Source: Labia minor (lineage: Eukaryota > Arthropoda > Insecta > Dermaptera > Spongiphoridae). From it: a DNA stretch of 64,000 bases. Shown one piece after another: positions 17,113 through 64,000 of this stretch. A program made the position numbers and the translations under genes. Within the stretch, counting starts at the first letter, position 1. Every line of letters begins with the position of its first letter. The notes under the pieces were generated by a model. It saw nothing but the letters and a program-made list of their open reading frames with translations. It was not told the DNA's origin and ran no database searches. The stretch spans positions 57,191,564 to 57,255,563 of the forward strand of contig OY720348.1 in NCBI GenBank assembly GCA_963082975.1, given 5' to 3'.

Positions 17113-18391
17113 CAGTTTATATTTAAAAAAAAAAAATCTGGAGTGTCTCCACTCGACTTTCTCGCAAATTTGAATTGAATTAATTAACATATAGTATATT
17201 TAAATTAAATTTAATTAATTAAATTGTATATTAAGTATAATTAAATTGGATAAATTAATTAATTGATTAAAAAAAATTACTGTATATTATTGTTCTTCAA
17301 TAACATTAATTAATTAACATATATTAATTTTAAATTTAAAACCTTCACCCTCATTTTTAAGTCGAAATTTAAAAATTAAAAAATCAATTCAACCAAGCTG
17401 AAATTCTATATATAGCAGTTTTATATAATTTTTAATTATGTGAAAAACCATCAAACATCCACTTTATTTTTACGGTCAGTTTAGAGGAAAAAAAATGAAA
17501 ACGTGGTAGATAATGGTTCTCTTCCTAATGAGCTACATTTTTCAAAATTTGAATAATGCCCCTGTACCAAATCTCTTTATTCTAGCTCAAACCGTTTTTG
17601 CGTAATCTTGTCTACATATTCAAACAGACATTTTTCTCAACCTTAGTGAAAATGATTCGGAAACCTTCAAAACGTATAAAATCATCAAAATCTCGACAAC
17701 GAAAATTTTCATGATCGCAATACTATCTCTGGAGAGATAGTAAAAATGTTTCAACCACTAAAATAATAAAATGTTTTTTAAAAAAATATTAAAATTAATT
17801 AATTTTTCAAAAATTGAAAAAACAATATTTTTAAAATAGACTAAAATAAAACATATTATTTATTAAAGAGGACTTTGACAGCCGTTGATAAAAAATTGTT
17901 ACATGGTATAAAATTAATTGAAAAAGAAAAATCGAGTGAACCAGTGGTTCTCAACCTTTTTTTAAAGCGGCCCACAAAGACACAGATAAGTATAAAGGAT
18001 TGAAAGTCGAAAATGTTGTTTAAGGGCCTCTTTACATTCACTGACTTAATTAATTTTTTTTAAATAACATTTTTTCTTGGATATGCTCGCGCCCCCCTCG
18101 GATATGTATGGGGGTGGTCTGTGGCTAAGGACTTCCCTTCCAATTATGCTGGCGCCTGCGGTGCGATCTCTCGAACTGCAGAGTTAATCTTGCCTGTAGC
18201 GCCATCTCTTGCCGCATGTATACCAATCTTTCATTTGAATAACCCCCCGCCCACACACACACACACTGATGAACCAACATTTTTATTTTGAACCTGAATC
18301 GTTGCTATCTTAAAGATTGTAAATTAAAAAAGTTTATATGACTATTACCTAGTAAATATTTTATAATTGTTAATACATTAATTAATTAAAA
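17113..18391 (+). promoter_or_regulatory. 5' flank of zinc-finger gene A, with truncated MITE, hAT end and CTCF-like motif
   Basis: 17,125-17,740 is the left part of the MITE family seen whole at 3702-4139; the right end is lost and it stops near a CTATCTCTGGAGAGATAG palindrome. 17,942-18,045 is an hAT-type fragment starting CAGTGGTTCTCAACC. 18,085-18,260 is GC-richer, as expected for a promoter, and contains TAGCGCCATCTCTTGCCGC (18,197-18,215), which resembles the insulator-protein CTCF core on the reverse strand. The motif is kept in all units. No TATA box can be assigned with confidence. Confidence 0.4.
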
Positions 18392-20867
18392 ATGGATCTT
18401 TATTCACAAGAAGAGAGAAAATATCCAATATACATAGGTACTTATTATTTCTATGTTTTTTTCGTCGAAAGTAATGTTAATTGTCACTAAAATGGTAATT
18501 ATATATAAAAGATAATCCAACATGGATTTGGATAAAACTTTGCCAGTGGGTTCCTTTTTATTATTTTAATAAACTTTTCTTATGAAAATTTTGCGGGACG
18601 CTCCTAGTTTACGGGATAAAAACTATTAATAGTAAATCTGTGGCGTCGGTTAAAATTAAATTATTTTCTAAAAAAACTAAATATATTTGTTTAATAAAAA
18701 TTAAATTAAATATTATATTAAATAAAAAATATTATTTTAAGTAAAATTAAATATTATTTTTAATGGGATTAAATATTACTTGAATAAAAATAAAATATTT
18801 TTATAGCTAAAATTAAATATATTATTTAATGAAAATTAATTTTATTTTTATAATTAGAATTAAAAATTTTATTTAAAAATATTAATATAATATTGATCAA
18901 GTGTCCCTATAAGCAGGTTATGCTTCTTGAGTAGGCTGACCAGAAATGTAGTCTGTCAAAATGGGACAAAACCCGTTTATTTTCAATATATGATTTTTGT
19001 ATAAATTTATTATAAAAATAAATAAATATTATAAAAATATGCAAAAGTATAATTAAATAACAATTTCACTTAACAAAAGAAACAAATATATAGGTGTAAA
19101 TAACAATATTTTATAAATAGATAATATTAATATGAAAACATCGAACAAATATATGCTTTATTGCAAATTATAAGATTAATAGCAATAATATTAGCAGAAT
19201 ATAGAAAATATTTAATAAATAACTTATTTACATATATAATATATGTGTATTGTATATAATAAATAATAGCAAGTAAGACTAGAAATAAAAAATACCATAA
19301 CTGTAAATGTAAAATGGTAATAGAAAACTATCATTTTATTTAATTTTTTTAATAATATTTTAACTAATAGGAGTACTTATTTAAATACGATTATGACTTA
19401 TCAGTTGTACTATTGTACTTCTCTGATGACATAATTTTATTTAATATACGAGGTTCTTTTGAAATATTTTGAAAAATTGTTCTCATGCGAAATTACAATT
19501 TTGACTAGCAATTAAAATTAAATTGAAAATCATTCAAATTCGTATATTTCAAGAAGACGACGGTACTGTTAAAACCAAATCCTTGTTGGAAACAGTTTTT
19601 TGTATAATTACCAGAAATATAATGATTTAAAATAACGAAAACAATTCTTTTTATAGGTCCTGTATATTCTTGTGAATATTGTCATACAAATTTTATAAGT
19701 GTGGAATTTTTATCGAAACATTTAAAAAAATGTTTTCATCAAGAAATATTTTCAATTTTCAAAAATGGTGTAAAACTCAAAAAAGATACAGAGAAATATT
19801 TAGACGAAAAAATTCAAGAAGATACCAATTCAAACCATACAGAGGACAAGCGTATTCAATGTAATTATTGTGAAAAGAAATTTAATTATAAATCATATTT
19901 AAATAGACATTTATTGATTCATACAGGAGAAAAACCTCTTGAATGTAATTATTGTGAAAAGAAATTTAATCAGAAATCAGCTTTAAAAACACATTTATTA
20001 ATTCACACAGGAGAAAAACCTTTTGAATGTAATTATTGTGAAAAGAAATTTAATCAGAAATCACATTTAAACACACATTTATTAATTCATACAGGAGAAA
20101 AACCATTTGAATGTAATTATTGTAAAAAGAAATTTAATCGGAAATCAGCTTTAAAAACACATTTATTAATTCACACAGGAGAAAAACCTTTTGTATGTAA
20201 TTATTGTGAAAAGAAATTTATTGGAAAATCATATTTAGATAAACATTTATTAATTCATACAGGGGAAAATCCTTTTGTATGTAATTATTGTGAAAAGAAA
20301 TTTATTGGAAAATCATATTTAGATAAACATTTGTTAATTCATACAGGAGAAAAACCTTTTGAATGTAATTATTGTAAAAAGAAATTTATTGAAAAATCAA
20401 ATTTAAATAGACATTTATTAATTCATACAGGAGAAAAACCTTTTGAATGTAATTATTGTAAAAAGAAATTTAATCGGAAATTAGCTTTAAAAACACATTT
20501 ATTAATTCATACAGGAGAAAATCCTTTTGTATGTAATTATTGTGAAAAGAAATTTATTGGAAAATCATATTTAGATAAACATTTATTAATTCATACAGGA
20601 GAAAATCCTTTTGTATGTAATTATTGTGAAAAGAAATTTATTGGAAAATCATATTTAGATAAACATTTATTAATTCATACAGGAGAAAAACCTATTGAAT
20701 GTAATTATTGTAAAAAGAAATTTAATCAGAAATCACATTTAAACACACATTTATTAATTCATACAGGAGAAAAACCTTTTGAATGTAATTATTGTAAAAA
20801 GAAATTTAATCGGAAATCAGCTTTAAAAACACATTTATTAATTCACATAGGAGAAAACTCATTTTGA
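18392..20867 (+). CDS. C2H2 zinc-finger protein A, 12 fingers, two exons
   Basis: Exon 1 (18,392-18,437) encodes MDLYSQEERKYPIYI plus one base, then donor GTACTTATT. The intron is 1,219 bp and ends TTCTTTTTATAG. Exon 2 (19,657-20,867) continues in frame, giving 418 residues in total. Exon 2 opens with a C2HC-like finger (CEYC, then HLKKCFH) and a charged linker of about 40 residues. Twelve C2H2 fingers follow (C-x2-C-x12-H-x3-H, 28 codons each) with TGEKP or TGENP linkers. Such arrays bind DNA in the nucleus; target and role are unknown. Varying residues sit at helix positions -1, 3 and 6, with Ser constant at 2 in nearly all fingers. Relative to B, one extra base in the codons after the last GEN linker shifts the frame, so the protein ends IGENSF and loses the next finger. 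Start choice rests on the conserved ATG, donor and phase in all four copies. Confidence 0.88.
18515..18630. repeat. Intronic arm of the foldback repeat (unit A)
   Basis: Contains TTTGCCAGTGGGTTCC, a CTTTTCTTATGAAA block and a GGGATAAAAA block, matching the arms of the foldback at 12,655-13,205. Its position in the intron is kept in all units. Confidence 0.55.
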
Positions 20868-22090: not shown

Positions 22091-22707
22091 TTTTTTTTCT
22101 ACCCTCCTCTTACGTGGAAGAATCATGTCCTTTTTCTTTGGACTCCTTTCAATTCATTTTCTTACTTACCCCCTCCCTGATCCCAAAAAAATCAATTTTA
22201 TTTGGATGAGGGAGAATATCTAGCATAGCTTCATTAAAAGAAAAAAAATTAAAAATTTGACTCTTATAAGAGACTCCTTAATAGTTCATATATGCTGATT
22301 ACCTGCATTTTTCAACCAGCACAACCTCACATGTGAGACATGCTATAAGTTCCTCTGAGAGGACCCACCTCTCCAAGCTTCTTACTAGTAGAAAACTTGG
22401 AACTCCTATTTTGGAGAATTAGAAAAACCAATCTAATCACTGTTTTTCCCTTTATATAAAATTTTGACAAAGTATTTTAAAATTCTAATCAAAGCCAATG
22501 ATTCAACATAATTTTCACCACATTCTAAATAAAATAAATTTTTATTTCATTGAACAGAGAAATTAAGGTTAATTTTTATTTGGTACCATATTTACACTTG
22601 AAATAACTTTTCCTGATAAGAATAATTAAAACGTTTACTATATTATTTGTTATGAATGTAGATTCATTTTCACTAGTATTATATAATTTTACGTTGCTTT
22701 CTTAATT

Positions 22708-22932
22708 CAGTGATTCTCAACCACTGTGTCTCGAGTTTTTAAAAGAGGGTCTTAAACTTTTTTTTCTAATTTTTTAATTTGGTTCTCAAAAAAAAAAAGC
22801 TAAACCGTTTTTGGGACCATTTTTTTCAATATTTTTTCAATTATTAGTACACTTATCTTTTTCTTTGTGTGCCGCCAAATTTTTAAAACGTTAACAGTGT
22901 GCCGGGGTAAAAAAAATGGTTGAGAATCACTG
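22708..22932. mobile_element. hAT-type MITE (CAGTGATTCTCAACC), unit A
   Basis: Ends CAGTGATTCTCAACC and GGTTGAGAATCACTG are perfect 15-bp inverted repeats. Flanks TCTTAATT and CCTTAATT are a near-perfect 8-bp target-site duplication. It is 225 bp and non-coding. Confidence 0.85.
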
Positions 22933-22974
22933 CCTTAATTAATTATTAATTATTGAATTTTGATAGCTGGCAAA

Positions 22975-23365
22975 GGAATATTCGCCGCCATGTTGATTGG
23001 CGGGCACTTCCAATGCTTTTCTTATCCGTGAAGGGGACAGCATAGCTATCTCTTGCTTACCCCCAATGGATGAGATTCAACTGACTTTGGACTTATTTCC
23101 TTAATACACTAATGACACTAATACAAAATTATGACGACAAAATGGAACCCGAAATGTCGAAACTCAAATTTCAAAAAAACACATGAAAATAAGCCTTTAC
23201 TAACTTGACATCATTGGTCGCTACTGCACGGTCGACTCTTGTAGCAAATTTCTTGGCCATGGAGAACAAAAGGTTTGTCATCCCTTGGACTGGCCTGACG
23301 CAATTATATCAGAATAAATTGCACATGAAACTTGTCTTTGTCTTTACTGATTTATCCTTGATATT
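22975..23365 (-). other. Promoter-like island with short open frame (unit A)
   Basis: Balanced-composition segment kept in all units. On the reverse strand a CCAAT box sits next to an ATGGCGGC (GCCAATCAACATGGCGGC), the arrangement of CCAAT and YY1-like elements at many animal promoters. Also on the reverse strand, 23,260-23,171 encodes the 29-residue MAKKFATRVDRAVATNDV peptide, rich in basic residues, with a possible donor GTTAGT after GATGTCAA. It may be the captured 5' end of a host gene. No downstream exon was found. Confidence 0.3.
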
Positions 23366-23940
23366 CCATTTTTATTAATTATTGTATTTTTTGTAGTTTT
23401 TAATATATATATGTAATTATAAATATATATATAATAGTGTTAAAGCATGTTTGAATGAAGGAACGTTAGAGACGCTGGATTAACTTTATAATTTAAATCA
23501 ATTAATTTGATTGTTTTTATTGTTAATTATTTATGTTTTATCGTTCTCGATATAATGGTTTAAAATAACTTGTAATTTAATTTATTCGTTTAGGTCAGTG
23601 GTTTCCATCCTTTCTGAACTGGCGTCCCCTTTTTTTAAAAACAAATTCTTGCACCTCCCTTAATTTTTGTAATTATCTAAATTCATGAATACTCACATAA
23701 TATAGTAACCATATTGAAAAAAATTGAAAAAAAAATCGAAAATGTTTAAGATCGAAAAAACATTTTACCTTTTTCTTTATTTTTTTATAACCATATTGAA
23801 AATATTCGAAAAAATCGAAAAATTGTGGGCACTTAGAATTAAATAAATTCTTGTATTTTAAAAACAGACTTAAATACATATATATAAAGTTATTAATTAA
23901 TTAAATTTTTATAATAACTCCAACATATCTATCTTCTTAA

Positions 23941-24199
23941 GGCGCCGTCTCCCTTCGGAGTTTGGTCATCATCATGACTAGGATAGCCTTAGAAGCCATG
24001 ATGATTTTTCTTGGTAATGTTAATGGAGTGGTTTCCCGTTGCCTTCCGCATGTATAGAACTACGAACTAACAGTTCCTGGAACCGGATGCAGCTGATGTT
24101 AAATTGAATTAATTAGAAAAATTTGATTTTAGTTAGAATCGAACACCGACTTCTTGTGTAGAAAATTCCACGCTACACTCACGGCTAACCTGCCTCCTA
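23941..24199 (-). mobile_element. tRNA-derived SINE (unit A)
   Basis: Reverse strand: a tRNA-like head beginning GGAGGCAGGTTAGCC with B box GTTCGATTC, then the central block GGCAACGGGAAACCACTCC, common to many arthropod tRNA SINEs, then an ATCATCATGG-type tail. Confidence 0.8.
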
Positions 24200-26136
24200 T
24201 ATCCTATATCTATAAAAAATGATATTATTTATTATTTGATGAATAAATTGATAAAATCTATTATTTCTACATTTAAGTTTGAATAAACTTGAAAATATTG
24301 ATAGTATTCAAATCATTTTATTTTTTTTAAATATGATATATATTTATATGTTCACTCTAATGTGAGCATAAAAAATAAATAAATAATCACTTTTGATTGA
24401 TTGCACTATTAACGGGCTATGTTAGTAGTTTGAGCTTCTTTTTTAAATATGAATTTCCTTAAATTGACAAAGTATCCCACCTTTTAAAACCTACTCTAAT
24501 TAGCCTAAATAAAGCATATACTTAGCTCACTTTTTTCTGCTTTGGACATTAATAAAGTAAAGACTAACATTTTTGGATAGATAAAACAACATTCAAACCC
24601 CCCCTCTCTCTCTCTTAATAAAATCATCTCAAATATCAACACAGATTCTTTTATTTAGATATAAAAATGAAAAATATTACTATATAATACAATAATATAT
24701 ACCTCGTATTTTAAAAAGTAGAATTTACCATAATAAATATATATAAAAAAATCATTTTTTGCAATGAAAATGCCCGATATTAATCGAACTATGAAAGATA
24801 TCTTAAATATATAAAGGGATTCTTATTTAGATTGAAAAATGAAATAAATTTATATACAGGGTCATTGTAAAAGGTGGATGATATTTTTTTGCACAACTAT
24901 TCGATAAATCAACACTTTTCATCAACTAATCCATCTATTTCTAATTCTTGATTTGAATGGATAGAAAAAATTGGAAGTGAAAGATCATATGATAATTTTA
25001 TTTAATTTCTATATTGAGAAAATTTAATTATGTAGTCTAGGAAGGTAAATAATAATATATATTTTCTATCAATTTCTATATTTCTGTATTTTTCATCTAA
25101 TTTCAACCTAATTTTATATTTCTATATTTTTAAATACCATTCTACCTTTATCCTATTTCACTATTAGAACAGTTCAATATTCTTAATAGAATAATTTTTT
25201 TAAAAAACCTAGTCTTATTTGAAACTTTCTTCTGTTAATATTATTTATTTTCTTTTTTTTTTTTTTTTTGAAACTTTTATCAATTTAAATATCTATGAAA
25301 TAATAAAAATGCAAATCTCATCTTTCATTTTTAATAATTTTTTAATTTTTCTTCATATTGTTTTTATACTACATGGTATATATATATATACATACTTTTT
25401 ACCTATATTTATATTCTAACTGTTTATTTCTCTTTCAATATATAGTTAATTTATTAGATTACCAATAATTTATTATTATGATATTTTATATGTGTATCTA
25501 TTTTCTTTATTTTAATTTTATTTGTTCTAATTTTTATTGGTATATATTTATAAATAACTAAATAAATATCTATATATAGATTGATGACTATTAATATAAA
25601 AGGAAAGGACAGGAATTTTAACTTCAAATTAAAACTTCATAATTATTTACATTTGGTTGTTTTATTATTAGTAGTAATTCAAAAATTACAGAAAAAGTTA
25701 CATATGATAAGTATAAATAAATAAATAAAAATTCGTTAATATTTCTTGAAAGAACTCATCTTCCCCTTCTTTTTCTTCATTCTTTTTTCTCATTATATAA
25801 TGTATGAAGTTATCTTTCTGAAAAACCAATAATTCAGATTAGTCCAATTTTATTATTAAATATATAAATTTTTAGAAAATATAAAAAAAATAACTAAAAA
25901 AATAATTATTATGATAATAAAATATTTTGATATTTCATTGAAATAATAAATAAATAAATTAAATAATATGAAAAAACTTAAGGGAAAAAATTCATAAAAA
26001 ATATAACATTTTAATAAAAATTCAAAAATATTCGTTATGAAAAACTTACTTTTAGTTGGTAGAAAATTGAAAATTATTAGGATTTTCCAAATTCATAATT
26101 TAACATCTAAAGTATTTTTGTATTGATCCAGCACTG
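24200..26136. other. AT-rich tail of unit A
   Basis: No gene. It contains a C7(CT)n run near 24,600, poly-T tracts and a transposon-like TACAGGGTCATTGTAAAA end near 24,856. The same tail closes all units, and in B and D a Helitron sits inside it. Confidence 0.5.
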
Positions 26137-26319
26137 CAGTTTAAATTTAAAAAAAAATCTGGAGTGTCTCCACTCGACCCTCTCGCATATTCGAATTGGA
26201 TTAATTAACATATATTATATATTTAAATTAAATTTAATTAATTAAATTATATCTTAAGTATAATTAAATTGGAAATCGAAATTTAAAAATTAAAAAAACA
26301 ATTCACGTGTTTGGTTTTT

Positions 26320-26984
26320 ACCGACCGACGATAGTAAGGGAGGTATTGTTTTCACACCAAATTTCACATGTGGAGATTTTTACATATCTCCACGAATCAT
26401 GCATTTTCTAAACAGAAAAAAGTATTTTTAGCATGATGTCTGTCCGTCCGTCTGTCCGTCCGTCTGTCCGTCCGTCTGTCCGTCCGTCTGTCCGTCCGTA
26501 TAGATGTGTACAGCCTGAACGGCTCAACCGATTTTGATGAAATTTAGTATATTTACTTAATGCATCAGTGGGATGAATTGATCAACTTTTGGTGCAAATC
26601 CGTGAACCGGAAGTGGTAGTATTAGCGATCGACGATAGGAAGGAAAGGGTTATTTTCACACCAAAGGAGATTTTTGTATATATCACCACGAATCATGCAC
26701 TTTGTATTGGTTTTATCCTCGGGAAAATCATATTTATTAGTTTTTTCTTGATTTAAAATTATATGACGTCATCCAGCCAATCATGACGTCACAGCCTGGT
26801 CTTACATATAAATATATACATATATTATAAATAAAATAAAATTAAAAATATTTATGTTATATGCCTATATGTTTTTTATTACATTAATAGATATATTAAA
26901 ATTATTTGAAATTGTTTCTGTAGCTGGAAATTAATTTACTTCAAACCGTCGGTCGGTTCGGACCTGGCCACAGGTCAACTTATT
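26320..26984 (+). repeat. ACCG-family dispersed repeat in unit B, ends defined by empty site
   Basis: Starts ACCGACCGACGATAG and ends GGTCAACTTATT. Unit C lacks it and joins GTGTTTGGTTTTTT to GTTGTTGACACC, so at most two bases of target were duplicated. The first ~100 bp recur in diverged form at 26,628-26,720. (GTCTGTCCGTCC)n occupies about 26,440-26,500. The terminal motif recurs inverted near the other end (CCGTCGGTCGGTT). Confidence 0.8.
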
Positions 26985-28063
26985 TGTTGTTGACACCACG
27001 TCACGTGCTGGCGCGTTTAAAAAAATTTAAAAAATTAATTCCGGTACTTTTCGCGATTCAATCAAGCTGAAATTTTATATATAGCAGTTTTATACAATTT
27101 TTAATTATGTGATAAACTATTAAACATCCACTTTATTTTTACGGTCAGTTTAGAGGAAAAAAAATGAAAACGTGGTAGATAATGGTTCTCTTCCTAATGA
27201 GCTACATTTTTCAAAATTTGATAGAAAACTACAAATTTTGAATAATGCCCCTGTACCAAATCTCTTTATTCTAGCTCAAACCGTTTTTGCGTAATCTTGT
27301 TAACATGTTCACACAGACATTTTTCTCAACCTTAGTGAAAATGGTTCAGAAACCTTCAAAACGTATAAAATCATCAAAATCTCGACATCGAAAATTTTCA
27401 TGATCGCAATACTATCTCTGGAGAGATAGTAAAAATGTGTCAACCACTAAAATAATAAAATGTTTTTAAAATAAATATTAAAATTAATTAAATTTTCAAA
27501 AATTGAAAAAACAATATTTTTAAAATAGACTAAAATAAAACATATATTATTTATTAAAGAGGACTTTGACAGCCGTTGATAAAAAATTGTTACATGGTAT
27601 AAAATTAATTGAAAAAGAAAAATCGAGTGAGCCAGTGGTTCTCAACCTTTTTTTAAATCGGCCCACAAAGACACAGATAAGTGTAAAGAATTGAAAGTCG
27701 AAAATGTTGTTTAAGGGCCTCTTTACATTCACTGACTTAATCAATTTTTTTTAAATAACATTTTTTCTTGGATATGCTCGCGCCCCCCGGATATGTATGG
27801 GGATGGTGGATAAGGACTTCCCTTCCAATTATGCTTGCGCCTGCGGTGCGATCTCTCGAACGCCTGCAGAGTTAATATTGCCTGTAGCGCCATCTCTTGC
27901 CGCATGTATACCAAACTCGGGTTAAACTCCCCCCTTCACACACGCACTGATAAACCAACATTTTTATTTGGAAACTGAATCGTTGCTATCTTAAATCAAA
28001 AAAGTTTATATTACTATTGCCTAGTAAATATTTTATAATAGTTAATACATTAATCAATTAAAA
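26985..28063 (+). promoter_or_regulatory. 5' flank of zinc-finger gene B
   Basis: Continuation of the truncated MITE to about 27,435, an hAT fragment from 27,633, then the GC-richer region 27,775-27,950 with TAGCGCCATCTCTTGCCGC at 27,885-27,903, about 160 bp before the ATG. Confidence 0.4.
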
Positions 28064-31226: not shown

Positions 31227-31316
31227 TGTATTAATTGTAAAATTAAATTTATTGGAAAATCATATTTAAAAAGACATTTACTAATTCATTCCTTTTTATT
31301 TTATGTATTTCATTAA
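31227..31316 (+). pseudogene. Relic terminal finger behind the stop of gene B
   Basis: In frame after TAA there are 29 codons: CINCKIKF, IGKSYLKRHLLIHS, then FLFYVFH and TAA. All zinc ligands are present. The position occupied by Glu in other fingers (FEC) is the stop. Confidence 0.7.
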
Positions 31317-32144: not shown

Positions 32145-32258
32145 TCTCATGCAATTCCATGTTAAGCAGTCACTGCCACTCCACGGTTACCTCACCTTTC
32201 TTTGGCCCATCAATGCTCAGAAGAATCCTATTCTCAAAAAAATACTCTAAATCTATAC
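32145..32258 (-). repeat. LINE reverse-transcriptase C-terminal fragment (unit B)
   Basis: Same fragment as 21,895-21,995, with a four-base insertion in an A run. Confidence 0.75.
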
Positions 32259-32296
32259 ATTATACTAGGAACTATAACTATGGACAACCCTTCATT

Positions 32297-49552: not shown

Positions 49553-49735
49553 CAGTTTAAATTTAAAAAAAAATCTGGAGTGTCTCCACTCGACCCTCTC
49601 GCATATTCGAATTGGATTAATTAACATATATTATATATTTAAATTAAATTTAATTAATTAAATTATATCTTAAGTATAATTAAATTGGAAATCGAAATTT
49701 AAAAATTAAAAAAACAATTCACGTGTTTGGTTTTT

Positions 49736-50400
49736 ACCGACCGACGATAGTAAGGGAGGTATTGTTTTCACACCAAATTTCACATGTGGAGATTTTTACA
49801 TATCTCCACGAATCATGCATTTTCTAAACAGAAAAAAGTATTTTTAGCATGATGTCTGTCCGTCCGTCTGTCCGTCCGTCTGTCCGTCCGTCTGTCCGTC
49901 CGTCTGTCCGTCCGTATAGATGTGTACAGCCTGAACGGCTCAACCGATTTTGATGAAATTTAGTATATTTACTTAATGCATCAGTGGGATGAATTGATCA
50001 ACTTTTGGTGCAAATCCGTGAACCGGAAGTGGTAGTATTAGCGATCGACGATAGGAAGGAAAGGGTTATTTTCACACCAAAGGAGATTTTTGTATATATC
50101 ACCACGAATCATGCACTTTGTATTGGTTTTATCCTCGGGAAAATCATATTTATTAGTTTTTTTTTGATTTAAAATTATATGACGTCATCCAGCCAATCAT
50201 GACGTCACAGCCTGGTCTTACATATAAATATATACATATATTATAAATAAAATAAAATTAAAAATATTTATGTTATATGCCTATATGTTTTTTATTACAT
50301 TAATAGATATATTAAAATTATTTGAAATTGTTTCTGTAGCTGGAAATTAATTTACTTCAAACCGTCGGTCGGTTCGGACCTGGCCACAGGTCAACTTATT
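49736..50400 (+). repeat. ACCG-family dispersed repeat (unit D)
   Basis: Copy of 26,320-26,984 with one substitution in a T run. Confidence 0.8.
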
Positions 50401-51479
50401 TGTTGTTGACACCACGTCACGTGCTGGCGCGTTTAAAAAAATTTAAAAAATTAATTCCGGTACTTTTCGCGATTCAATCAAGCTGAAATTTTATATATAG
50501 CAGTTTTATACAATTTTTAATTATGTGATAAACTATTAAACATCCACTTTATTTTTACGGTCAGTTTAGAGGAAAAAAAATGAAAACGTGGTAGATAATG
50601 GTTCTCTTCCTAATGAGCTACATTTTTCAAAATTTGATAGAAAACTACAAATTTTGAATAATGCCCCTGTACCAAATCTCTTTATTCTAGCTCAAACCGT
50701 TTTTGCGTAATCTTGTTAACATGTTCACACAGACATTTTTCTCAACCTTAGTGAAAATGGTTCAGAAACCTTCAAAACGTATAAAATCATCAAAATCTCG
50801 ACATCGAAAATTTTCATGATCGCAATACTATCTCTGGAGAGATAGTAAAAATGTGTCAACCACTAAAATAATAAAATGTTTTTAAAATAAATATTAAAAT
50901 TAATTAAATTTTCAAAAATTGAAAAAACAATATTTTTAAAATAGACTAAAATAAAACATATATTATTTATTAAAGAGGACTTTGACAGCCGTTGATAAAA
51001 AATTGTTACATGGTATAAAATTAATTGAAAAAGAAAAATCGAGTGAGCCAGTGGTTCTCAACCTTTTTTTAAATCGGCCCACAAAGACACAGATAAGTGT
51101 AAAGAATTGAAAGTCGAAAATGTTGTTTAAGGGCCTCTTTACATTCACTGACTTAATCAATTTTTTTTAAATAACATTTTTTCTTGGATATGCTCGCGCC
51201 CCCCGGATATGTATGGGGATGGTGGATAAGGACTTCCCTTCCAATTATGCTTGCGCCTGCGGTGCGATCTCTCGAACGCCTGCAGAGTTAATATTGCCTG
51301 TAGCGCCATCTCTTGCCGCATGTATACCAAACTCGGGTTAAACTCCCCCCTTCACACACGCACTGATAAACCAACATTTTTATTTGGAAACTGAATCGTT
51401 GCTATCTTAAATCAAAAAAGTTTATATTACTATTGCCTAGTAAATATTTTATAATAGTTAATACATTAATCAATTAAAA
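50401..51479 (+). promoter_or_regulatory. 5' flank of zinc-finger gene D
   Basis: Copy of the B flank, with TAGCGCCATCTCTTGCCGC at 51,301-51,319. Confidence 0.4.
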
Positions 51480-54400
51480 ATGGATCTTTATTCACAAGAA
51501 GAGAGAAAATATCCAATATATATAGGTACTTATTATTTCTGTTATTTTCATCGAAAGTAATGTTAATTGTCACTAAAATGATAATTATATATAAAAGATA
51601 ATCCAACATGGATTTGGATAAACCTTTGCCAGTGGGTTCCTTTTTATTCTTTTAATAAACTTTTCTTATGAAAATTTTGCGGGACGCTCCTAGTTTACGA
51701 GATAAAAACTATTAATAGTAAATCTGTGGCGTCGGTTAAATTTAAATTATTTTCTAAAAAAACTAAATATATTTGTTTAATAAAAATTGAATTAAATATT
51801 ATATTAAATAAAAAATATTATTTTAAGTAAAATTAAATATTATTTTTAATGGGATTAAATATTACTTGAATAAAAATAAAATATTTTTATAGCTAAAATT
51901 AAATATATTATTTAATGAAAATTAATTATTTTTATAATTAGAATTAAATATTTTATTTAAAAATATTAATATAATATTGATCAAGTGTCCCTATAAGCAG
52001 GTTATGCTTCTTGAGCAGGCTGACCAGAAATGTAGTCTGTCAAAACGGGACAAAACCCGTTTATCTTCAATATTAGATTTTTGCATAAATTTATTATAAA
52101 AATAAATAAATATTATAAAATATGCAAAAGAATAATTAAATAACAATTTCACTTATAAAAAGAAACAAATATATAGGTGTAAATAACAATATTTTATAAA
52201 TAGATACAGGGCCGCCCTAAGATTTTCGGCGCCCGTGTGCTCCTACAATTTTGCGCCCCCTTTCATAAGAAATTACACAGAATGGTTAGTAAAAATATAT
52301 TAACTAATAAAAAATGCCGCCCAAAGAAGGCTTGCGCCCTAGTACTATAGCCCAATTAGCCCTGTGGTTAGGGCGGCCCTGAATAGATAATATTAATATG
52401 AAAACATCGAACAAATATATGCTTTATTGCAAATTATAAGATTAATAGCAATAATACTAGAAGAATATAGAAAATATTTAATAAATAACTTATTTACATA
52501 TATAATATATGTGTATTGTATATAATAAATAAAATAGCAAGTAAGAATTTAGAAACAAAAAAATACCATAACTGAAATGTAAAATGGAAATAGAAAACCA
52601 TAATTTTATTTAATTTTTTTAATAATATTTTAAACTAATAGGAGTACTTATTTAAATACGATTATGACTTATCAGTTGTACTATTGTACTTCTCTGATGA
52701 CATAATTTTATTTAATATACGAGGTTCTTTTGAAATATTTTGAAAAATTTTTCGCATGCGAAATTACAATTTTGTCTAGCAATTAAAATTAAATTGATAA
52801 TCATTCAAATTCGTATATTTCAAGAAGACGACGGTACTGTTAAAACCAAATCCTTGTTGGAAACAGTTTTTTGTATAATTACCAGAAATATAATGATTTA
52901 AAATAACGAAAACAATTCTTTTTATAGGTCCTCTATATTCTTGTGTATATTGTCATACCAATTTTATAAGTGAGGAATTTTTATCGAAACATTTAAAAAA
53001 ATGTTTTCATCAAGAAATATTTTCAATTTTCAAAAATGGTGTAAAACTCAAAAAAGATACAGAGAAATATTTAGACGAAAAATTTAAAGAAGATACTAAT
53101 TCAAACCATACAGAGGACAAGCGTTTTCAATGTAATTATTGTGAAAAAAAATTTAATTATAAATCACATTTAAATAGACATTTATTGATTCATACAGGAG
53201 AAAAACCTTTTGTATGTAATTATTGTGATAAGAGATTTAATCTGAAATCAAATTTAAAAACACATTTATTAATTCATACAGGAGAAAAACCTTTTGTATG
53301 TAATTATTGTAAAAAGAAATTTATTGGAAAATCATATTTAGATAAACATTTATTAATTCATACAGGAGAAAAACCTTTTGAATGTAATTATTGTAAAAAG
53401 AAATTTAATCGGAAATCAACTTTAAAAACACATTTATTAATTCACACATGTGAAAAACATTTTGAATGTAATTATTGTGAAAAGAAATTCAATCAGAAAT
53501 CACATTTAAAAACACATTTATTAATTCACACAGGAGAAAAACCTTTTGTATGTAATCATTGTGATAAGAAATTTAATCAGAAATCAGCTTTAAAATCACA
53601 TTTATTAATTCATACAGGAGAAAAACCTTTTGAATGTAATTATTGTAAAAAGAAATTTAATCAGAAATCAGCAATAAAAACACATTTATTAATTCACACA
53701 GGAGAAAAACCTTTTAAATGTAATTATTGTGAAAAGAAATTTAATCACAAATCAGCTTTAAAATCACATTTATTAATTCACACAGGAGAAAAACCTTTTG
53801 TATGTAATTATTGTGAAAAGAAATTTATTGGAAAATCATATTTAGATAAACATTTATTAATTCATACAGGAGAAAAACCTTTTGTATGTAATTATTATGA
53901 AAAGAAATTTAATAATAAATCACATTTAAATAGACATTTATTGATTCATACAGGAGAAAAACCTTTTGTATGTAATTATTGTGAAAAGAAATTTATTGGA
54001 AAATCATATTTAGATAAACATTTATTAATTCACACAGGAGAAAAACCTTTTGTATGTAATTATTGTGATAAGAGATTTAATCTGAAATCAAATTTAAAAA
54101 CACATTTATTAATTCACACAGGAGAAAAACCTTTTGAATGTAATTATTGTAAAAAGAAATTTAATCGGAAATTAGCTTTAAAAACACATTTATTAATTCA
54201 TACAGGAGAAAATCCTTTTGTATGTAATTATTGTGAAAAGAAATTTATTGGAAAATCATATTTAGATAAACATTTATTAATTCATTCAGGAGAAAATCCT
54301 TTTGTATGTAATTATTGTGAAAAGAAATTTATTGGAAAATCATATTTAGATAAACATTTATTAATTCATACAGGAGAAAAACCTTTTGAATGTAATTATT

Positions 54401-54567
54401 GTGATAAGAAATTTAATCGGAAATCAAATTTAAAAACACATTTATTAATTCACACAGGAGAAAAACCTTTTGAATGTAATTATTGTGAAAAGAAATTTAA
54501 TCAGAAATCAAATTTAGAGAAACATTTATTAATTCACACAGGAGAAAAACATTTTGAATGTATTTAG
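51480..54567 (+). CDS. C2H2 zinc-finger protein D, 17 fingers, shortened by a nonsense change
   Basis: Exon 1 is 51,480-51,525, the intron is 1,402 bp with the same hAT MITE, and exon 2 is 52,928-54,567, in frame, giving 561 residues. It is identical to B through finger 17, including the defective CNYY finger 10. In the 18th finger the B codon TAT (after FECI) is TAG, so the protein ends FECI and loses that finger. The change is one of very few in the 17.9 kb shared with the left copy. The remaining 16 intact fingers could still bind DNA, so this may be a functional, slightly shorter paralog, a decaying copy, or an allelic difference placed in tandem by the assembly. Confidence 0.88.
51601..51716. 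repeat. Intronic arm of the foldback repeat (unit D)
   Basis: Copy of 28,185-28,300. Confidence 0.55.
52207..52381. mobile_element. 175-bp hAT MITE in intron 1 of gene D
   Basis: Copy of 28,791-28,965 with the same AATAGATA duplication. Confidence 0.95.
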
Positions 54568-54732
54568 TGTAATAATAAATTTAATCAGAAATCAGCTTTA
54601 AAAACACATTTATTAATTCATACAGGAGAAAAACATTTTTAATGTATTAATTGTAAAATTAAATTTATTGGAAAATCATATTTAAAAAGACATTTACTAA
54701 TTCATTCCTTTTTATTTTATGTATTTCATTAA
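54568..54732 (+). pseudogene. Relic fingers after the stop of gene D
   Basis: The rest of finger 18 (CNNKF, QKSALKTHLLIHTGEKHF) follows in frame, then TAA and the CINCKIKF terminal finger as in B. Confidence 0.75.
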
Positions 54733-55560
54733 TTATTTTTATTTTTTACCTTGAATAGTGATATTTGTATTGTGTTTTCTAATATGAATATTATCTATTA
54801 TTATCGATAATTTGATAGAAAATAATGAAAAGAAGAGAGAGAATGAGTGACAAATTAAAAAAAGACTTCCATTGTTATGTTTCTTTAAATCAGTGTTTCC
54901 CAACGTGGAGCTCTCGCCCCACAGGGATAGATTCGACACGAGTTTAACCCTTTTTCATATCAAAAATTATATGTATATGTTAAGAGGGCATAAGAATTTT
55001 AATTTTTAATTTATCTCCTTTAAAATAGAGAATGATTTTCTCTTTGTGAAATGATTACTTTGATGAATATAATTTATATTATCTATTATATATACTGTAA
55101 TGAAATGAAATGAATATTCATTAAATGAAAAAAAAATATATTGAATATTCCGATAAACAGCAGCAATAATTTATGTGTAGCAACCCAGAAAGTTTTAATT
55201 TATCATAAAAATAATTTGGCAGTTTTTTTTTCTATATAATAATTATATTAATCAATATATATAAACTATAAGGCATTAATAATTTATTTTTCATAAAATT
55301 ATCTCTAATTCAAATTCGAATTAATATTAAAAACTGTTAGGAAATGTGATTATCACCTAACTTACAGAGATATACTTAAATTTGATTTTCAATCTGATTA
55401 AATCTTAACAGCAATAATAAAATTATTGGTTGAATTTATTTGTAATTTCCTTTACAATCGATCCCTCGAGCTTTTACTCTCTTTTACTTTATTTTACTCT
55501 TAATACACTTCTGATATTAAATGATATATATATATTTATTATTATTTTATTTTTAACTTC

Positions 55561-55674
55561 TCTCATGCAATTCCATGTTAAGCAGTCACTGCCACTCCAC
55601 GGTTACCTCACCTTTCTTTGGCCCATCAATGCTCAGAAGAATCCTATTCTCAAAAAAATACTCTAAATCTATAC
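55561..55674 (-). repeat. LINE reverse-transcriptase C-terminal fragment (unit D)
   Basis: Copy of 32,145-32,258. Confidence 0.75.
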
Positions 55675-55712
55675 ATTATACTAGGAACTATAACTATGGA
55701 CAACCCTTCATT

Positions 55713-55767
55713 TAAAAAAATCTGGAGTGTCTCCACTAGACTATCTCGCACAAATTTGAATTGGTTT
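55713..55767. repeat. MITE end fragment (unit D)
   Basis: Copy of 32,297-32,351. Confidence 0.55.
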
Positions 55768-56383
55768 AATTTTTTTGCCACCCTCTTATGTGGAAGAATC
55801 ATGTCTTTTACCTTTGGACTCCTTTCAATTCATTTTCTTACTTACCCCCTCCCTGATCCCCAAAAAAATCAATTTTATTTGGATGAGGGAGAATATCTAG
55901 CATAGCTTCATTAAAAGAAAAAAAATTAAAAATTTGACTCTTATAAGAGACTCCTTAATAGTTCATATATGCTGATTACCTGCATTTTTCAACCAGCACA
56001 ACCTCACATGTGAGACATGCTATAAGTGCCTCTGAGAGGACCCACCTCTCCAAGCTTCTTACTAGTAGAAAACTTGGAACTCCTATTTTGGAGAATTAGA
56101 AAAACCAATCTAATCACTGTTTTTCCCTTTATATAAAATTTTGACAAAGTATTTTAAAATTCTAATCAAAGCCAATGATTCAACATAATTTTCACCACAT
56201 TCTAAATAAAATAAATTTTTTTTCATTGAACAGACAAATTAAGATTAATTTTTATTTTGTACCATATTTACACTTGAAATAACATTTCCTGATAAGAATA
56301 ATTAAAACGTATACTATATTATTTGTTATGAATGTAGATTCATTTTCACTAGTATTATATAATTTTACGTTGCTTTCTTAATT

Positions 56384-56609
56384 CAGTGATTCTCAACCAC
56401 TGTGTCTCGAGTTTTTAAAAGAGGGTCTTAAACTTTTTTTTCTAATTTTTTAATTTGGTTCTCAAAAAAAAAAAAGCTAAACCGTTTTTGGGACCAATTT
56501 TTTCAATATTTTTTCAATTATTAGTACACTTATCTTTTTCTTTGTGTGCCGCCAAATTTTTAAAACGTTAACAGTGTGCCGGGGTAAAAAAAAAGGTTGA
56601 GAATCACTG
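56384..56609. mobile_element. hAT-type MITE (CAGTGATTCTCAACC), unit D
   Basis: Copy of 32,968-33,193. Confidence 0.85.
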
Positions 56610-56651
56610 CCTTAATTAATTATTAATTATTGAATTTTGATAACTGGAAAA

Positions 56652-57042
56652 GGAATATTCGCCGCCATGTTGATTGGCGGGCACTTCCAATGCTTTGCTT
56701 ATCCGTGAAGGGGACAGCATAGCTATCTCTTGCTTACCCCCAATGGATGAGATTCAACTGACTTTGGACTTATTTCCTTAATACACTAATGACACTAATA
56801 CAAAATTATGACGACAAAATGGAACCCGAAATGACGAAACTCAAATTTCAAAAAAACACATGAAAATAAGCCTTTACTAACTTGACATCATTGGTCGCTA
56901 CTGCACGGTCGACTCTTGTAGCAAATTTCTTGGCCATGGAGAACAAAAGGTTTGTCATCCCTTGGACTGGCCTGACGCAATTATATCAGAATAAATTGCA
57001 CATGAAACTTGTCTTTGTCTTTACTGATTTATCCTTGATATT
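56652..57042 (-). other. Promoter-like island with short open frame (unit D)
   Basis: Copy of 33,236-33,626. Confidence 0.3.
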
Positions 57043-57484
57043 CCATTTTTATTAATTATTGTATTTTTTGTAGTTTTTAATATATATATGTAATTATAAA
57101 TATATATATAATAGTGTTAAAGCTTGTTTGGATGAAGGAACAATAGAGACGCTGGATTAACTTTATAATTTAAATCAATTAATTTGATTGTTTTTATTGT
57201 TAATTATTTATGTTTTATCGTTCTCGATATAATGGTTTAAAATAACTTGTAATTTAATTTATTCGTTTAGGTCAGTGGTTTCCAACCTTACTGAACTGGC
57301 GTCCCCTTTTTTTAAAAACAAATTCTTGCGCCTCCCTTAGTTTTTGTAATTATCTAAATTCATGAATACTCACATAATATAGTAAGCATATATTAAATAC
57401 ATATATATATTATTAAATACATATATATAAAGTTATTAATTAATTAAATTTTTATAATAACTCCAACATGTCTATCCTCTTAAG

Positions 57485-57742
57485 GCGCCGTCTCCCTTCG
57501 GAGTTTGGTCATCATCATGACTAGGATAGCCTTAGAAGCCATGATGATTTTTCTTGGTAATGTTAATGCAGTGGTTTCCCGTTGCCTTCCGCATGTATAA
57601 AACCACGAACTAACAGTTCCTGGAGCCGGAGGCAGCTGATGTTAAATTTAATTTATTAGAAAAATTTGATTTTAGTTGGACTCGAACACCGATTTCTTAT
57701 GTAGAAAATTCCACGCTACACTCACGGCTAACCTGCCTCCTT
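57485..57742 (-). mobile_element. tRNA-derived SINE (unit D)
   Basis: Copy of 34,069-34,326. Confidence 0.8.
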
Positions 57743-58207
57743 TATCCTATATCTATAAAAAATGATATTATTTATTATTTAATGAATAAATTGATAAAAT
57801 CTATTATTTCTACATTTAAGTTTGAATAAACTTGAAAATATTGATAGTATTCAAATCATTTTATTTTTTTTAAATATGATATATATTTATATGTTCACTC
57901 TAATGTGAGCATAAATAATAAATAAATAATCACTTTTGATTGATTGCACTATTAACGGGCTATGTTAGTAGTTTGAGCTTCTTTTTTAAATGTGAATTTC
58001 CTTAAATTGACAAAGTATCCCACCTTTTAAAACCTACTCTAATTAGCCTAAATAAAGCATATACTTACCTCACTTTTTTCTGCTTTGGACATTAATAAAG
58101 TATGGACTAACATTTTTGGATAGATAAAACAACATTCAAACCCCCCCCTCTCTCTCTCTCTTAATAAAATCATCTCAAATATCAACACAGATTCTTTTAT
58201 TTAGATA

Positions 58208-61200
58208 CTAGCTGCTCAGAGCGCCTTCGGCGCTCTTCACACCTAGACGGGGGCTCCGCCCCCTGTACCCCCGAGTGGTACATAGTATTTGGTGGTTGAA
58301 AGTAGTAAAAGGTTTTCATCTATTTTGTTTCAATCAGTATATTACATAAAACATTCATTTCTTTTTGTGTTCTTATTTAAAAAATATATTTTAATTTAAT
58401 CACTATATTAATTATATATATTATTATTGTATATGTTATATCTATCTACCTATGTGGCTCAAAGATACTCTAAAGTTCTTAGCCGCAACAACCACATTTC
58501 TCCAAGTGTCCCTATCCTGAGCCCTTGTTCCAGCTCTCTTACGTCCCTTCCTACGCGTCATTGGTTTTCCAAGCGGACGTTTTCCAATCGGTCTTCCCAC
58601 CAATATCTTTTTCCTCTCCCATTCTAGCCACGTGCCCTGCCTATCGCTTTTATAACCCTAACTATTTCTGAAGATGCAGAGAGGCCATGCAATTTCTTGT
58701 TATGCAGTCTCCCCCATTCCCCGGTGACCTCATCTTTCTTTGGCCAATAAATGCAGGGAAGAATCCTATTCTCAAACACTCTGAATCTACTCTCATCTCC
58801 CAGGGTCATAGACCATGCCTCCCACCCATATAATGCAACAGGCAAAATAATTTTTTTATATATTCCCTTTGATAATAATTTTGAAGAGATAAGCCTCTTT
58901 ATTGCAAGATAACAGGCGTTTCCCGATTGCAACCCCGATTTAAATTCTTCTCAAATATTATTATCCTTCGTGATTACATTCAATTTTTCTACATTTTCAA
59001 ATTCTACATTTTGTATCTTAAGATTTTGTATGTTAATACTCTTCCTCTTTGTTACTAAATATTTTTTCTTATCACTATTAATTTCAAACCTCCATTAATT
59101 TTTCCTCGCTATCTGCAATTGCAATTTCCTAATCTCCTATTATATTTAAGTCGTCTGGGTAACCTAACATTTTACAATTGATTTCCGCATCTTATTCTTT
59201 CTTTACTACCTTCAAGACAAATTTGAAGATCAAAATTTGAAAAAGTTTATGCTGATCTATATTGAGTCATGTGTATGTTTTACTAAAGTCTACAAATAAT
59301 TAGTAAACAGAAATATTGAATTCGCGGTTTTTTCCTAATATCTGTCATAATGAAAATATCTTAATTAATGTTGATCGATTTGGCCTGAACCCGCAATGAT
59401 ATCTCATAATATTTCCTCCGCCTATGGTTCTTAAGTATTTTCTATGTTATAATATTTCTTGATCATTACATTTTGGTATTTTATTTTCATTGCTAGATTA
59501 TTATTGAATATTTTTAATTATAATGAAACTTGAGAAAATGCAAAAATAGAGACTTGAGACAATTTATAAAAATTAACGGTATAAAACTATAGATAAATTA
59601 TCAATATATACATTCATTAATAGTATTAATTTAAATTAATTGATTTATTTGTTTTTTTATTATTAAGTTCATTTATTAATTTTTTTAGATCATAGTTATT
59701 TTCCTTAAAAGAACTTAAATTCTGTGGTCCTAGGGGATTTGAAAATTATTCGTCACAATATGAAGATTTCGCTTACAGTTTCTGTCATGTCCGACCTCCA
59801 TCCAACAGTTATTTTCTGTCAAGTTTTTTGCTTCTCTTAATCATGTGATCTATATATTTAATTTTTTTTGATTCATTATAATAAAATTTAAACAAATAAA
59901 AATTTTAATTTGTTAATTTATATAAATTTCAATATAAACTGATTGTGAGTGATACGCTTAGCCAATACTCTGAATAATTTGTGTACAAAAATATTGAATG
60001 TTCTTAGCGAGATTTGATATAATGTTGTACGATTTGTCCTAAATCTGAATTAGAAGAAAATTATAAATTGCATTAAAATGAGACCTTTTAGAATAAATTA
60101 TTTAATTGAAATGATATTTAAATATAAGAATTTAAAAAAATATTATATTCTTTGTTTGGCAATTGTTATTTAATTATGTGCAACATGATTCGACTTGCAC
60201 AGAGCATCGTTATTTTTTATTAATATCACATAATAAAAATGAATCTTTTAAACATAATAAATAAAAAAGACATTTTAATAAATTTAAAAAATATACCCAA
60301 TTTAAAAATGTCAAAAATTTAAAACAACTTTATATCATCATATTTTAATTTTTATATAATATATATATATATTTAGTAATTAATAATAGAGTAATTAAAT
60401 TAAAATAAAAAACAAAGATAATATAATTCAGTCATTTTAATTCAGGTTAAATAATATTTTTTTTTATTATTCAATGATAAAATTTATATATTATTATATA
60501 TATATTATAGAAAAGAAGAAATATTCAATTAAATAAAAAATAATTTAAGATAAAAATATGATCTAATAAATATCTTATCTTATTATGCTAGCTAAAATTG
60601 TATATATCTATCTATCTATCTATAGCCATTGGTTCTCAAAAACCGCTCTAACGATTTTTTTCAAATTCACACTAGATATAGTATTTATAAAGAAAAATTA
60701 AGTTTTATTGATGATATCTCTTGAAACATACAGCTTCATTATTAATTTCTTAATTGAAAATTATATATTATATGGAAAACGTCAAAATTTTTAATACTGC
60801 CTGCTAAGACAGTAAAAAAATGACAATTTTTTATCTAAATACATATAGTCCAGCGGTTGGACTGATGTTTTAACGAGTGGATTTCGTCGGTTCGAAACTC
60901 GCCGGGTGAATCGTTATTTAAAAATGAAAATAATGATTTTGTTATTTTTTTTTCTTTTTATCTATTGTTTACTTTTTAATAAATTACTATTCTATATTTA
61001 TTTATTCATTGTTCTTTTATTAATAAAGTTTTAGATAGTTTTATAAGTTTTAATATTTTTTCAATAAAATATTATTCAATATATTTATTAATATTATTTT
61101 ATTTATTATTATTGAGTACCCGAAGTTCCATTCATTTTAATCAGATTGATGCAATGATGCAACAGTTAATAATTGTAATATTGTAATAAATTTCTATCTT

Positions 61201-62673
61201 GAAAATTGTTACATATTATTCAGGATATTTTAAAAACTATTTCTTTCTTTAATTAATATTCATTTTTTCTATAAGTCAGATATATTTCCAAATATTAAAT
61301 AATTTTTGAAGTGAAAACTTCTTTAGCGGCGTTGAGCACTTTTGCGGGATGGGGAAAAAGTATAGAACTCGCGTGATCGTGACCAACACCATGAAACCAT
61401 CTGCTTTCAAATTTCTTATAACAGAGCGCGAAATTTGAATTGTCATTAGAACTGTTTTATAAATTATCTCTAACATATAAATATATATTTATTATGTAAA
61501 GTTCATTTCATATATACATATATAATCAAAATTATACGAAATGAACTTCACATAATAAATATATATTTTATGTTAGAGATAAGAATTATAAAACAGTTCG
61601 TATTGCAATATTTTAAACAAAGTTGTGTATTTATATATATATAAATATAAGTTACAAATTTGTTTAAAATATATGTTTAAAATAATATATAAGTTATATA
61701 TATATACATGCATATGAAATTCATCTTTCTCGTGAAATAGCGCGAATTTCGTCTGTTTTAAAATTTCTTACGCAGAAGTTTTCACTTCTGTCGGCCAGTC
61801 CCACGACTGCCAATTTTGCTTTTTTAATTCCGAAAAGCTGCAAAGCACGTTTTTTTGTCTTTAGTTTGTTTTATAACCACTTGGGGCGCTAAACAGTTTT
61901 TCAAAAAAACACTATAGAAAAAAAATATATGTACCTATATATTATATATTTATGTATTATTGAGGAGCACAAGTTCATTAATTTTAATCAGATTGATGCA
62001 AATGTGTAACATTTAATAATTGTAATAAATAATTAAAGAATTGTGTATCAATATTTTTTAAAGGGTAGAGCGAGAGCTCGGTGTCCCAGGTATTAATATT
62101 ACCAGCCAAATCAAATAATAATGAATCATTTTTTTTAACTTAAGTACCGAGCCGAGGCTCGGGGTCCCGGTACTTTTAATTAAATTGAGAACTTTTAGAA
62201 TAAATTATTTTATTGAATTGATATTTGTATATTAGAATTTAAAATAAAGTGAAATATTATAATAATTCTTTGATTGGGAATAGCTATGATAATTCATTGT
62301 TTGAAATGATTCCGCTAGGCCGGCAGTGAGCCGCGAGCTGCTCTTGAATGAACAACACGGAGAATTATATAAACTTTAAAAAATTAATTTCTGCGGTTAT
62401 TGATAAGATATTAATAAAATTTATAGCCTATGTTACTCTAGAGGTATATAAGAATATTGTGATGTAATTTCAAAGAAATCGGTTCAGCCAATTCTGAGTC
62501 TATAAAATAGTAATTTTCCGGACAGACAGACCGACAGACAGACAGACAGACAGACAGACGTGAAAAATTCTAAAGTCACTTTTGGATTCTAGAGGTCATG
62601 AAACGCGAAGATATGCAAAAATTTTTAAATTCTGAGCAATGTGCAGACAAAAACCTTTTTTTATATATATAGA
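58208..62673 (-). mobile_element. Non-autonomous Helitron (unit D)
   Basis: Copy of 34,792-39,257 with the same ends (reverse-strand TC start, GC hairpin, CTAG end), carried along by the 23.4-kb duplication and not a separate insertion. It includes the tRNA-like head at 60,844-60,906 and the inverted repeat at 61,450-61,598. Confidence 0.93.
58436..59231 (-). pseudogene. LINE reverse-transcriptase 3' part inside the Helitron (unit D)
   Basis: Copy of 35,020-35,815. Longest open part 58,932-58,624. Confidence 0.88.
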
Positions 62674-64000
62674 TAAAAATGAAAAATATTACTATATAAT
62701 ACAATAATATATACCTCGTATTTTAAAAAGTAGAATTTACCCTAAAAATATATATAAAAAATTCATTTTTTGCAATGAAAATGCCCGATATTAATCGAAC
62801 TATGAAAGATATCTTAAATATATAAAGGGATTCTTATTTAGATTGAAAAATGAAATAAATTTATATACAGGGTCATTGTAAAAGGTGGATGATATTTTTT
62901 TGCACAACTATTCGATAAATCAACACTTTTCATCAACTAATCCATCTATTTCTAATTCTTGATTTGAATGGATAGAAAAAATTGGAAGTGAAAGATCATA
63001 TGATAATTTTATTTAATTTCTATATTGAGAAAATTTAATTATGTAGTCTAGGAAGGTAAATAATAATATATATTTTCTATCAATTTCTATATTTCTGTAT
63101 TTTTCATCTAATTTCAACCTAATTTTATATTTCTATATTTTTAAATACCATTCTACCTTTATCCTATTTCACTATTAGAACAGTTCAATATTCTTAATAG
63201 AATAATTTTTTTAAAAAACCTAGTCTTATTTGAAACTTTCTTCTGTTAATATTATTTATTTTCTTTTTTTTTTTTTTTTTGAAACTTTTATCAATTTAAA
63301 TATCTATGAAATAATAAAAATGCAAATCTCATCTTTCATTTTTAATAATTTTTTAATTTTTCTTCATATTGTTTTTATACTACATGGTATATATATATAT
63401 ACATACTTTTTACCTATATTTATATTCTAACTGTTTATTTCTCTTTCAATATATAGTTAATTTATTAGATTACCAATAATTTATTATTATGATATTTTAT
63501 ATGTGTATCTATTTTCTTTATTTTAATTTTATTTGTTCTAATTTTTATTGGTATATATTTATAAATAACTAAATAAATATCTATATATAGATTGATGACT
63601 ATTAATATAAAAGGAAAGGACAGGAATTTTAACTTCAAATTAAAACTTCATAATTATTTACATTTGGTTGTTTTATTATTAGTAGTAATTCAAAAATTAC
63701 AGAAAAAGTTACATATGATAAGTATAAATAAATAAATAAAAATTCGTTAATATTTCTTGAAAGAACTCATCTTCCCCTTCTTTTTCTTCATTCTTTTTTC
63801 TCATTATATAATGTATGAAGTTATCTTTCTGAAAAACCAATAATTCAGATTAGTCCAATTTTATTATTAAATATATAAATTTTTAGAAAATATAAAAAAA
63901 ATAACTAAAAAAATAATTATTATGATAATAAAATATTTTGATATTTCATTGAAATAATAAATAAATAAATTAAATAATATGAAAAAACTTAAGGGAAAAA
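62674..64000. other. AT-rich tail of unit D
   Basis: Copy of 39,258-40,585. The window ends about 150 bp before the expected next unit border. Confidence 0.5.

Follow-up and report, generated by a model that had tools for sequence, protein, structure and literature searches.

The 64,000-nucleotide stretch of DNA analysed here, hereafter referred to as the window, has a G+C content of ~26% and contains four long finger-coding frames, all of which are on the + strand. These frames belong to four C2H2 zinc-finger genes that follow one another head-to-tail on this strand, with start codons at positions 18,392, 28,064, 41,997 and 51,480, the spacing between the ATGs of successive units being 9.7, 13.9 and 9.5 kb. 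The left edge of the array is near position 17,112, and on its right side the array runs past the end of the window. Exon 1 is 46 bases long in all four units and codes for only 15 whole residues, viz. the identical peptide MDLYSQEERKYPIYI, which is followed by a split Gly codon. The donor (TAG/GTACTT, the slash marking the junction) and the acceptor (TTTTTATAG/GT) are likewise identical in the four units. The spliced proteins of units 1 to 4 have 418, 586, 390 and 561 residues and carry 12, 18, 11 and 17 fingers, respectively, all four being C2H2 tandem zinc-finger proteins by the usage of at least 5 canonical fingers with TGEKP-type linkers. In the two units that were scanned, the Pfam family zf-C2H2 is matched far past its cut-off (E=1.5e-64 for unit 1 and 2.6e-89 for unit 2). 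These gene models bear out the original prediction that the locus consists of four direct units with one gene each, sharing the exon-1 peptide and the splice sites. However, although four gene copies are present in the array, they are not independent, as units 2 and 4 lie in near-identical blocks and therefore represent one gene twice; the locus thus comprises three distinct genes and a fresh copy of one of them.

The exon-2 frames contain no methionine in any of the four units (0 of 4), and due to this an upstream exon is needed for the start. The first exon was sought among ATG-donor pairs lying at most 3.5 kb away and keeping the phase, using a donor score table. Four such pairs have a context and length that are identical across all units, and of these the proposed exon 1 scores best and has the sole positive donor. 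When the four array regions are set aside, each with a 3' margin of at most 500 bases, the four copies of exon 1 are the only matches of a tblastn search with the unit 2 protein (E up to 1). As conservation in the non-coding DNA of the units is roughly equal to that of the N-terminal module described below, the true start may also lie in a further upstream exon. One AATAAA motif is found ~0.7 kb downstream of each array.

An N-terminal module of 83 codons is common to all four genes; that of unit 4 is exactly the same as that of unit 2, while the module of unit 3 differs by 2 residues. Exon 2 carries a divergent finger-like motif on its N-terminal side, a charged linker of 39 residues and the 11-18 fingers. 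The motif has the form C-x2-C-x12-H-x3-C-x-H, and although a finger-like N-terminal motif is indeed present where a C2HC-like domain had been predicted, the C2HC label is ambiguous, as a C2H2 finger with a wide last spacing fits it equally. Searches of the unit 1 and unit 2 modules (83 residues each) gave no match to KRAB or to ZAD (zf-AD) at E up to 10 and no match to SET of the PR/SET type, although an unseen upstream exon could still carry any one of these domains. The module comprising exon 1 and the divergent finger matches none of the Pfam families above the cut-off, and the PDB offers no convincing relative. INSM1, which is at the top of the 25 PDB sequence matches to the module (whole-sequence E=0.0021), was rejected as a relative because its better single stretch reaches only E=0.82. 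An AlphaFold model of the N terminus of exon 2 had a mean predicted local distance difference test (pLDDT) score of 37.8 and was discarded. A scan of a viral collection with the module and two fingers gave 9 pattern matches, of which 0 were confirmed, and Rfam at its gathering thresholds gave 0 matches. In the corresponding scan of prokaryotes, 31 of the 71 pattern matches were confirmed, all in bacterial records. Of these, 20 begin at query residue 64 or later, i.e. in the fingers only, and 11 begin at residue 14, 19 or 24, none of the matches beginning before residue 14; those from residue 14, 19 or 24 (33-51% identity in the best segments) are read as finger probably aligned against finger. 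The bacterial finger-like frames are in records of Endozoicomonas, Kistimonas, Endonucleobacter, Sansalvadorimonas, Babeliales and TM6, and they are either eukaryote-like fingers used by bacteria or host contamination of the assemblies.

The variability of the fingers was assessed on the 41 fingers of units 1 to 3, the 17 fingers of unit 4 being dropped as copies. In canonical fingers, positions -1, 3 and 6 of the helix contact bases. These are the three most variable of the 28 finger positions, with entropies of 2.61, 2.07 and 1.80 bits, followed by helix position 5 (1.68) and finger residue 5 (1.57), and only 1 of the 3276 possible triples does as well. Substitutions were placed on a tree of 38 of the 41 fingers, from which the three terminal ones ending in a stop were dropped. 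In this tree, the contact positions show 23 nonsynonymous and 5 synonymous changes versus 2 and 7 for the zinc-binding and core positions (Fisher p=0.002), and relative to expectation the nonsynonymous-to-synonymous (N:S) ratio is 0.04 for the core, 0.59 for the linker and 0.69 for all positions. The core of the finger is under constraint. Further, the non-coding DNA of units 1 and 2 differs by 21 indels per 109 substitutions, on which basis ~16 frame-breaking indels would be expected in the fingers, whereas only one is observed, in the last linker of unit 1 (P(<=1) ~2e-6). A stop-codon test (P=0.02) was not used, as the stop-bearing terminal fingers had been dropped beforehand and its two "stops" were steps of the ancestral reconstruction.

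Based on these observations, we consider it quite probable that the locus is a young tandem cluster of two-exon C2H2 genes for DNA-binding proteins, which changes by exchange of whole genes and by gain and loss of fingers. A coding function with diversified DNA specificity appears very probable from the sequences. Under this interpretation, whole genes would change by unequal exchange between homologous units with a period of 23.4 kb, one such event being very recent unless the assembly contains a loop, whereas fingers would be gained or lost in units of 84 bp, with the variety of amino acids greatest at the base-contacting residues. The resulting proteins would differ in the DNA sites they bind and would most probably be sequence-specific repressors, for which transposable elements are the best-documented class of targets in clusters of this kind.

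A number of observations weigh against the interpretation of the locus as such a cluster. The donor of the proposed exon 1 is not the top candidate within single units, ranking 10th of 40 in unit 1, and 4th of 40, 4th of 27 and 4th of 40 in units 2 to 4. In the finger tree, the N:S ratio to expectation is 1.25 at the contacts, which is below that of the other helix positions (1.62) and of the remaining positions (1.47), and a comparison of contacts with all other positions gives p=0.42; as the contacts are not above other positions, a specific N:S excess at these sites, i.e. positive selection, is not demonstrated in the tree of 38 fingers. The fingers also copy one another, so that the finger statistics are not drawn from independent samples. 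In the N-terminal module, 8 nonsynonymous and 3 synonymous changes are seen among the three distinct genes (p=0.41), so that neutrality is not rejected; the original prediction had looked to a value below 1 in the non-finger part as support for real genes, and although the ratio of ~0.56 is below 1, it does not differ from 1 on 11 substitutions. Scans of the unit 1 and unit 2 modules turned up no known effector domain. Lastly, the 3' ends of 2 of the 4 genes are broken, and one finger of units 2 and 4 is degenerate.

Table 1. Coordinates of the genes, inserted elements and duplicated blocks within the window.
Feature	Coordinates	Strand
Unit 1, exon 1	18392..18437	+
Unit 1, exon 2, with the N-terminal module followed by 12 fingers; the end is frame-shifted, with finger remnants beyond it to ~21,015	19657..20867	+
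Unit 2, exon 1	28064..28109	+
Unit 2, exon 2: 18 fingers (finger 10 without one zinc Cys), TAA, one more in-frame finger to ~31,289	29512..31226	+
Unit 3, exon 1	41997..42042	+
Unit 3, exon 2: 11 fingers, TAA, one more in-frame finger to ~44,456	43267..44393	+
Unit 4, exon 1 (duplicate of that in unit 2)	51480..51525	+
Unit 4, exon 2, with 17 fingers; ended by a nonsense change, one finger ahead of the end of unit 2	52928..54567	+
Miniature inverted-repeat transposable element (MITE) of 175 bp within the unit 2 intron, with terminal inverted repeats of 14 bp and a target duplication of 8 bp (AATAGATA)	28791..28965	
Dispersed repeat of ~660 bp in the spacer of units 1 and 2 (ends placed by eye)	26325..26984	
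Near-identical block, copy 1: 3' flank of unit 1, whole of unit 2 and spacer; right end set by the window cut of copy 2	22636..40588	
Near-identical block, copy 2, cut by the window end	46052..64000	

The organization of this locus can be compared, by description, with that of known systems as given in three sources, the last of which is a preprint (PMC10547256, PMC6444547 and PMC11952569). FiNZ and KRAB genes are laid out as a short exon plus another that holds the finger array, and the contact residues are stated to rank among those that vary most in the examined species, the fly being a possible exception (PMC10547256). The FiNZ genes of cyprinid fish resemble the present genes in that a short N-terminal coding exon lies 5' of the array exon, in being clustered and recently duplicated, and in having contacts among the most variable residues. 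However, their first exon encodes a 28-residue glutamate-enriched domain, whereas here exon 1 contributes 15 residues and exon 2 supplies the remainder of the module, including its finger-like motif (PMC10547256). The ZF271-like genes of the milkweed bug, which form tandem clusters of 4-8 genes, and the APEZ genes of the pea aphid share with the locus the C2H2 arrays, the penta-peptide linker, the tandem clustering, the disrupted copies and the lack of another recognised domain, but their clustered genes vary in the number and size of exons, whereas here a single layout is seen in all four (PMC6444547). Young KRAB clusters of the mouse grow by segmental duplication of gene blocks carrying their transposons, in which they are like this locus, but they have a KRAB domain, which was not found here, and the present locus is far smaller (PMC11952569). 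By analogy, the locus fits the descriptions of known young zinc-finger clusters in kind.

The original prediction had pointed to repeat silencing or meiosis as a role. A role of these genes in transposon silencing is plausible, and repeat silencing is tentatively put forward as their main role, the doubt in this regard being somewhat greater than the confidence. The proteins could instead be real DNA-binding regulators that serve in ordinary gene regulation, heterochromatin organisation or meiotic control and not in transposon silencing, which is a substantial possibility, if a doubtful one, and is compatible with the coding function of the genes. Two accounts are in line with such a role, as the ZAD genes of the fly reportedly do not single out transposons for silencing (PMC10547256) and as repeat content was not found to correlate with the expansion of ZF271-like genes within Hemiptera (PMC6444547). 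However, the numbers of zinc-finger genes and retroelements correlate across animals, though not in dipterans (PMC10547256), and several transposon remnants are present at the single locus examined here. It is rather improbable that the module of exon 1 and the divergent finger marks a lineage-specific subfamily, convergent with KRAB and FiNZ as a repertoire of transposon-directed repressors, that has been caught during a change of gene number by a duplication that may date back only tens of thousands of generations.

The MITE in the intron of unit 2 has an empty site in unit 1, a 20-base remnant in unit 3 (42,722-42,741) and a further copy at 52,207-52,381. The dispersed repeat of ~660 bp, for which there is an empty site before unit 3 near 40,913, is found as copies or parts at 7266-7914, 8966-9583, 11551-11814, 26325-26984 and 49741-50400, at least some of them with short tandem runs of the GTCC/ACGG type. 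Remnants of a Tc1-type transposase (16499-16966; HTH_Tnp_Tc3_2, E=1.6e-11) and of a mariner-type transposase (14317-14553; Transposase_1, E=1e-8) are also present. A frame at 35211-35534 on the - strand, which matches no Pfam family with an E-value of 1 or less, resembles the 3' end of the reverse transcriptase of a retrotransposon without long terminal repeats. The transposase remnants, together with the finger genes, are in keeping with an animal host, and the resemblance to a retroelement tentatively suggests an arthropod. That the finger gene is itself borne by a transposon, for which the closeness of the left edge of unit 1 (~17,112) to the Tc1-type remnant counts, was set aside without a dedicated test; the insertions in the spacers differ between the units. 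A 78-residue frame at 6197-6430 (+) has a weak match to TPX2 (E=0.00028; 21.2 bits, under the Pfam cut-off of 25) and could represent an exon from an adjacent gene.

The two near-identical blocks differ by only 5 substitutions and 2 indels (of 1 and 2 bases) over ~17.95 kb, and when exon 2 is compared from its first base through the last of the array, a single base in 1,778 distinguishes unit 2 from unit 4; the 84-base gaps introduced between these two arrays by global alignment are artefacts that disappear in the ungapped comparison. The blocks have a sharp edge at 22,636/46,052, which falls inside the homologous 3' flanks of units 1 and 3. Near-identical copies with a junction inside older homology are the sequence pattern of a recent tandem segmental duplication, but a loop in the assembly would give the same pattern. 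The join would thus reflect either unequal crossing-over of unit 1 with unit 3 on misaligned chromosomes or an assembler that walked a 23.4-kb loop twice. In the latter case, the region 46,052-64,000 is an artefact and the real locus has three genes, which is compatible with the coding interpretation and which we regard as unlikely though by no means negligible. Besides the paucity of differences between the blocks, this explanation is favoured by the clustering of 3 of the 7 differences at 39,326-39,347, by the location of one of the 7 beside a TA-rich repeat, and by the position of the join, where units 1 and 3 are ~98% alike (10 differences in ~635 positions to the left of the block edge; 1.8-4.9% in the larger pieces compared). 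However, the differences also include isolated substitutions (the nonsense change at 54,567 and a C/T difference at 26,747/50,163), and other exchanges within the array are recent too. One of these involves the 1.68-kb spacer after unit 1 (24,646-26,319), which is 99.6% identical to that after unit 2 (39,240-40,917); as these spacer pieces are more alike than the adjoining genes, they point to a second recent exchange or conversion. Further, in its 5' flank unit 3 differs from unit 2 by 0.6% and from unit 1 by 4.4%, whereas its intron differs by 2.2% from unit 2 and 1.8% from unit 1. Since unit 3 is nearest to unit 2 in its 5' flank but not in its intron, it is a mosaic. The mutation rate of insects is near 3e-9 per site per generation, from which the duplication may be dated, as a rough estimate, to some tens of thousands of generations ago. 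Provided that the assembly is correct, a very recent duplication agrees with the earlier description of the genes as young and expanding, as do the pattern of variable positions, the frozen core and the few frame breaks. The near-identical second half of the window is a warning that the copy number here needs checking on reads.

The expectation that the frame is kept in all four genes holds up to the last fingers but fails near the 3' ends. In unit 1, the frame is shifted after finger 12, at the last linker, and in unit 4 the nonsense change noted above places the stop one finger early. Further, all four units carry an older stop ahead of one more finger, at which units 2 and 3 end. The finger after this stop (31227-31289, 44394-44456 and the corresponding positions of units 1 and 4) retains all four zinc ligands, CINCK.KFIGKSYLKRHLLIHS, and the stop is interpreted as an old truncation, readthrough being less likely. 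In view of the frame shift, the early stop and the older common stop, the C-terminal end is eroding while the bulk of the array is kept. That the entire cluster is dying or made up of pseudogenes, whose frames are open only through the youth of the copies, is very improbable, for although these lesions, the loss of one zinc cysteine in finger 10 of units 2 and 4 (CNYY) and a module without demonstrable constraint speak for it, the frame breaks are confined to the 3' end, the core shows 2 nonsynonymous to 7 synonymous changes, and there are hardly any indels across 41 fingers.

The cluster is thus real, young, partly decaying, apparently very recently re-duplicated and of an already known kind. 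It offers a compact natural example of zinc-finger evolution at both scales, in which genes would change by unequal exchange and fingers by steps of 84 bp with variety at the contact residues. Should the host be an invertebrate, this locus could be used to ask whether clusters of this kind target transposons by means of an N-terminal module other than KRAB.

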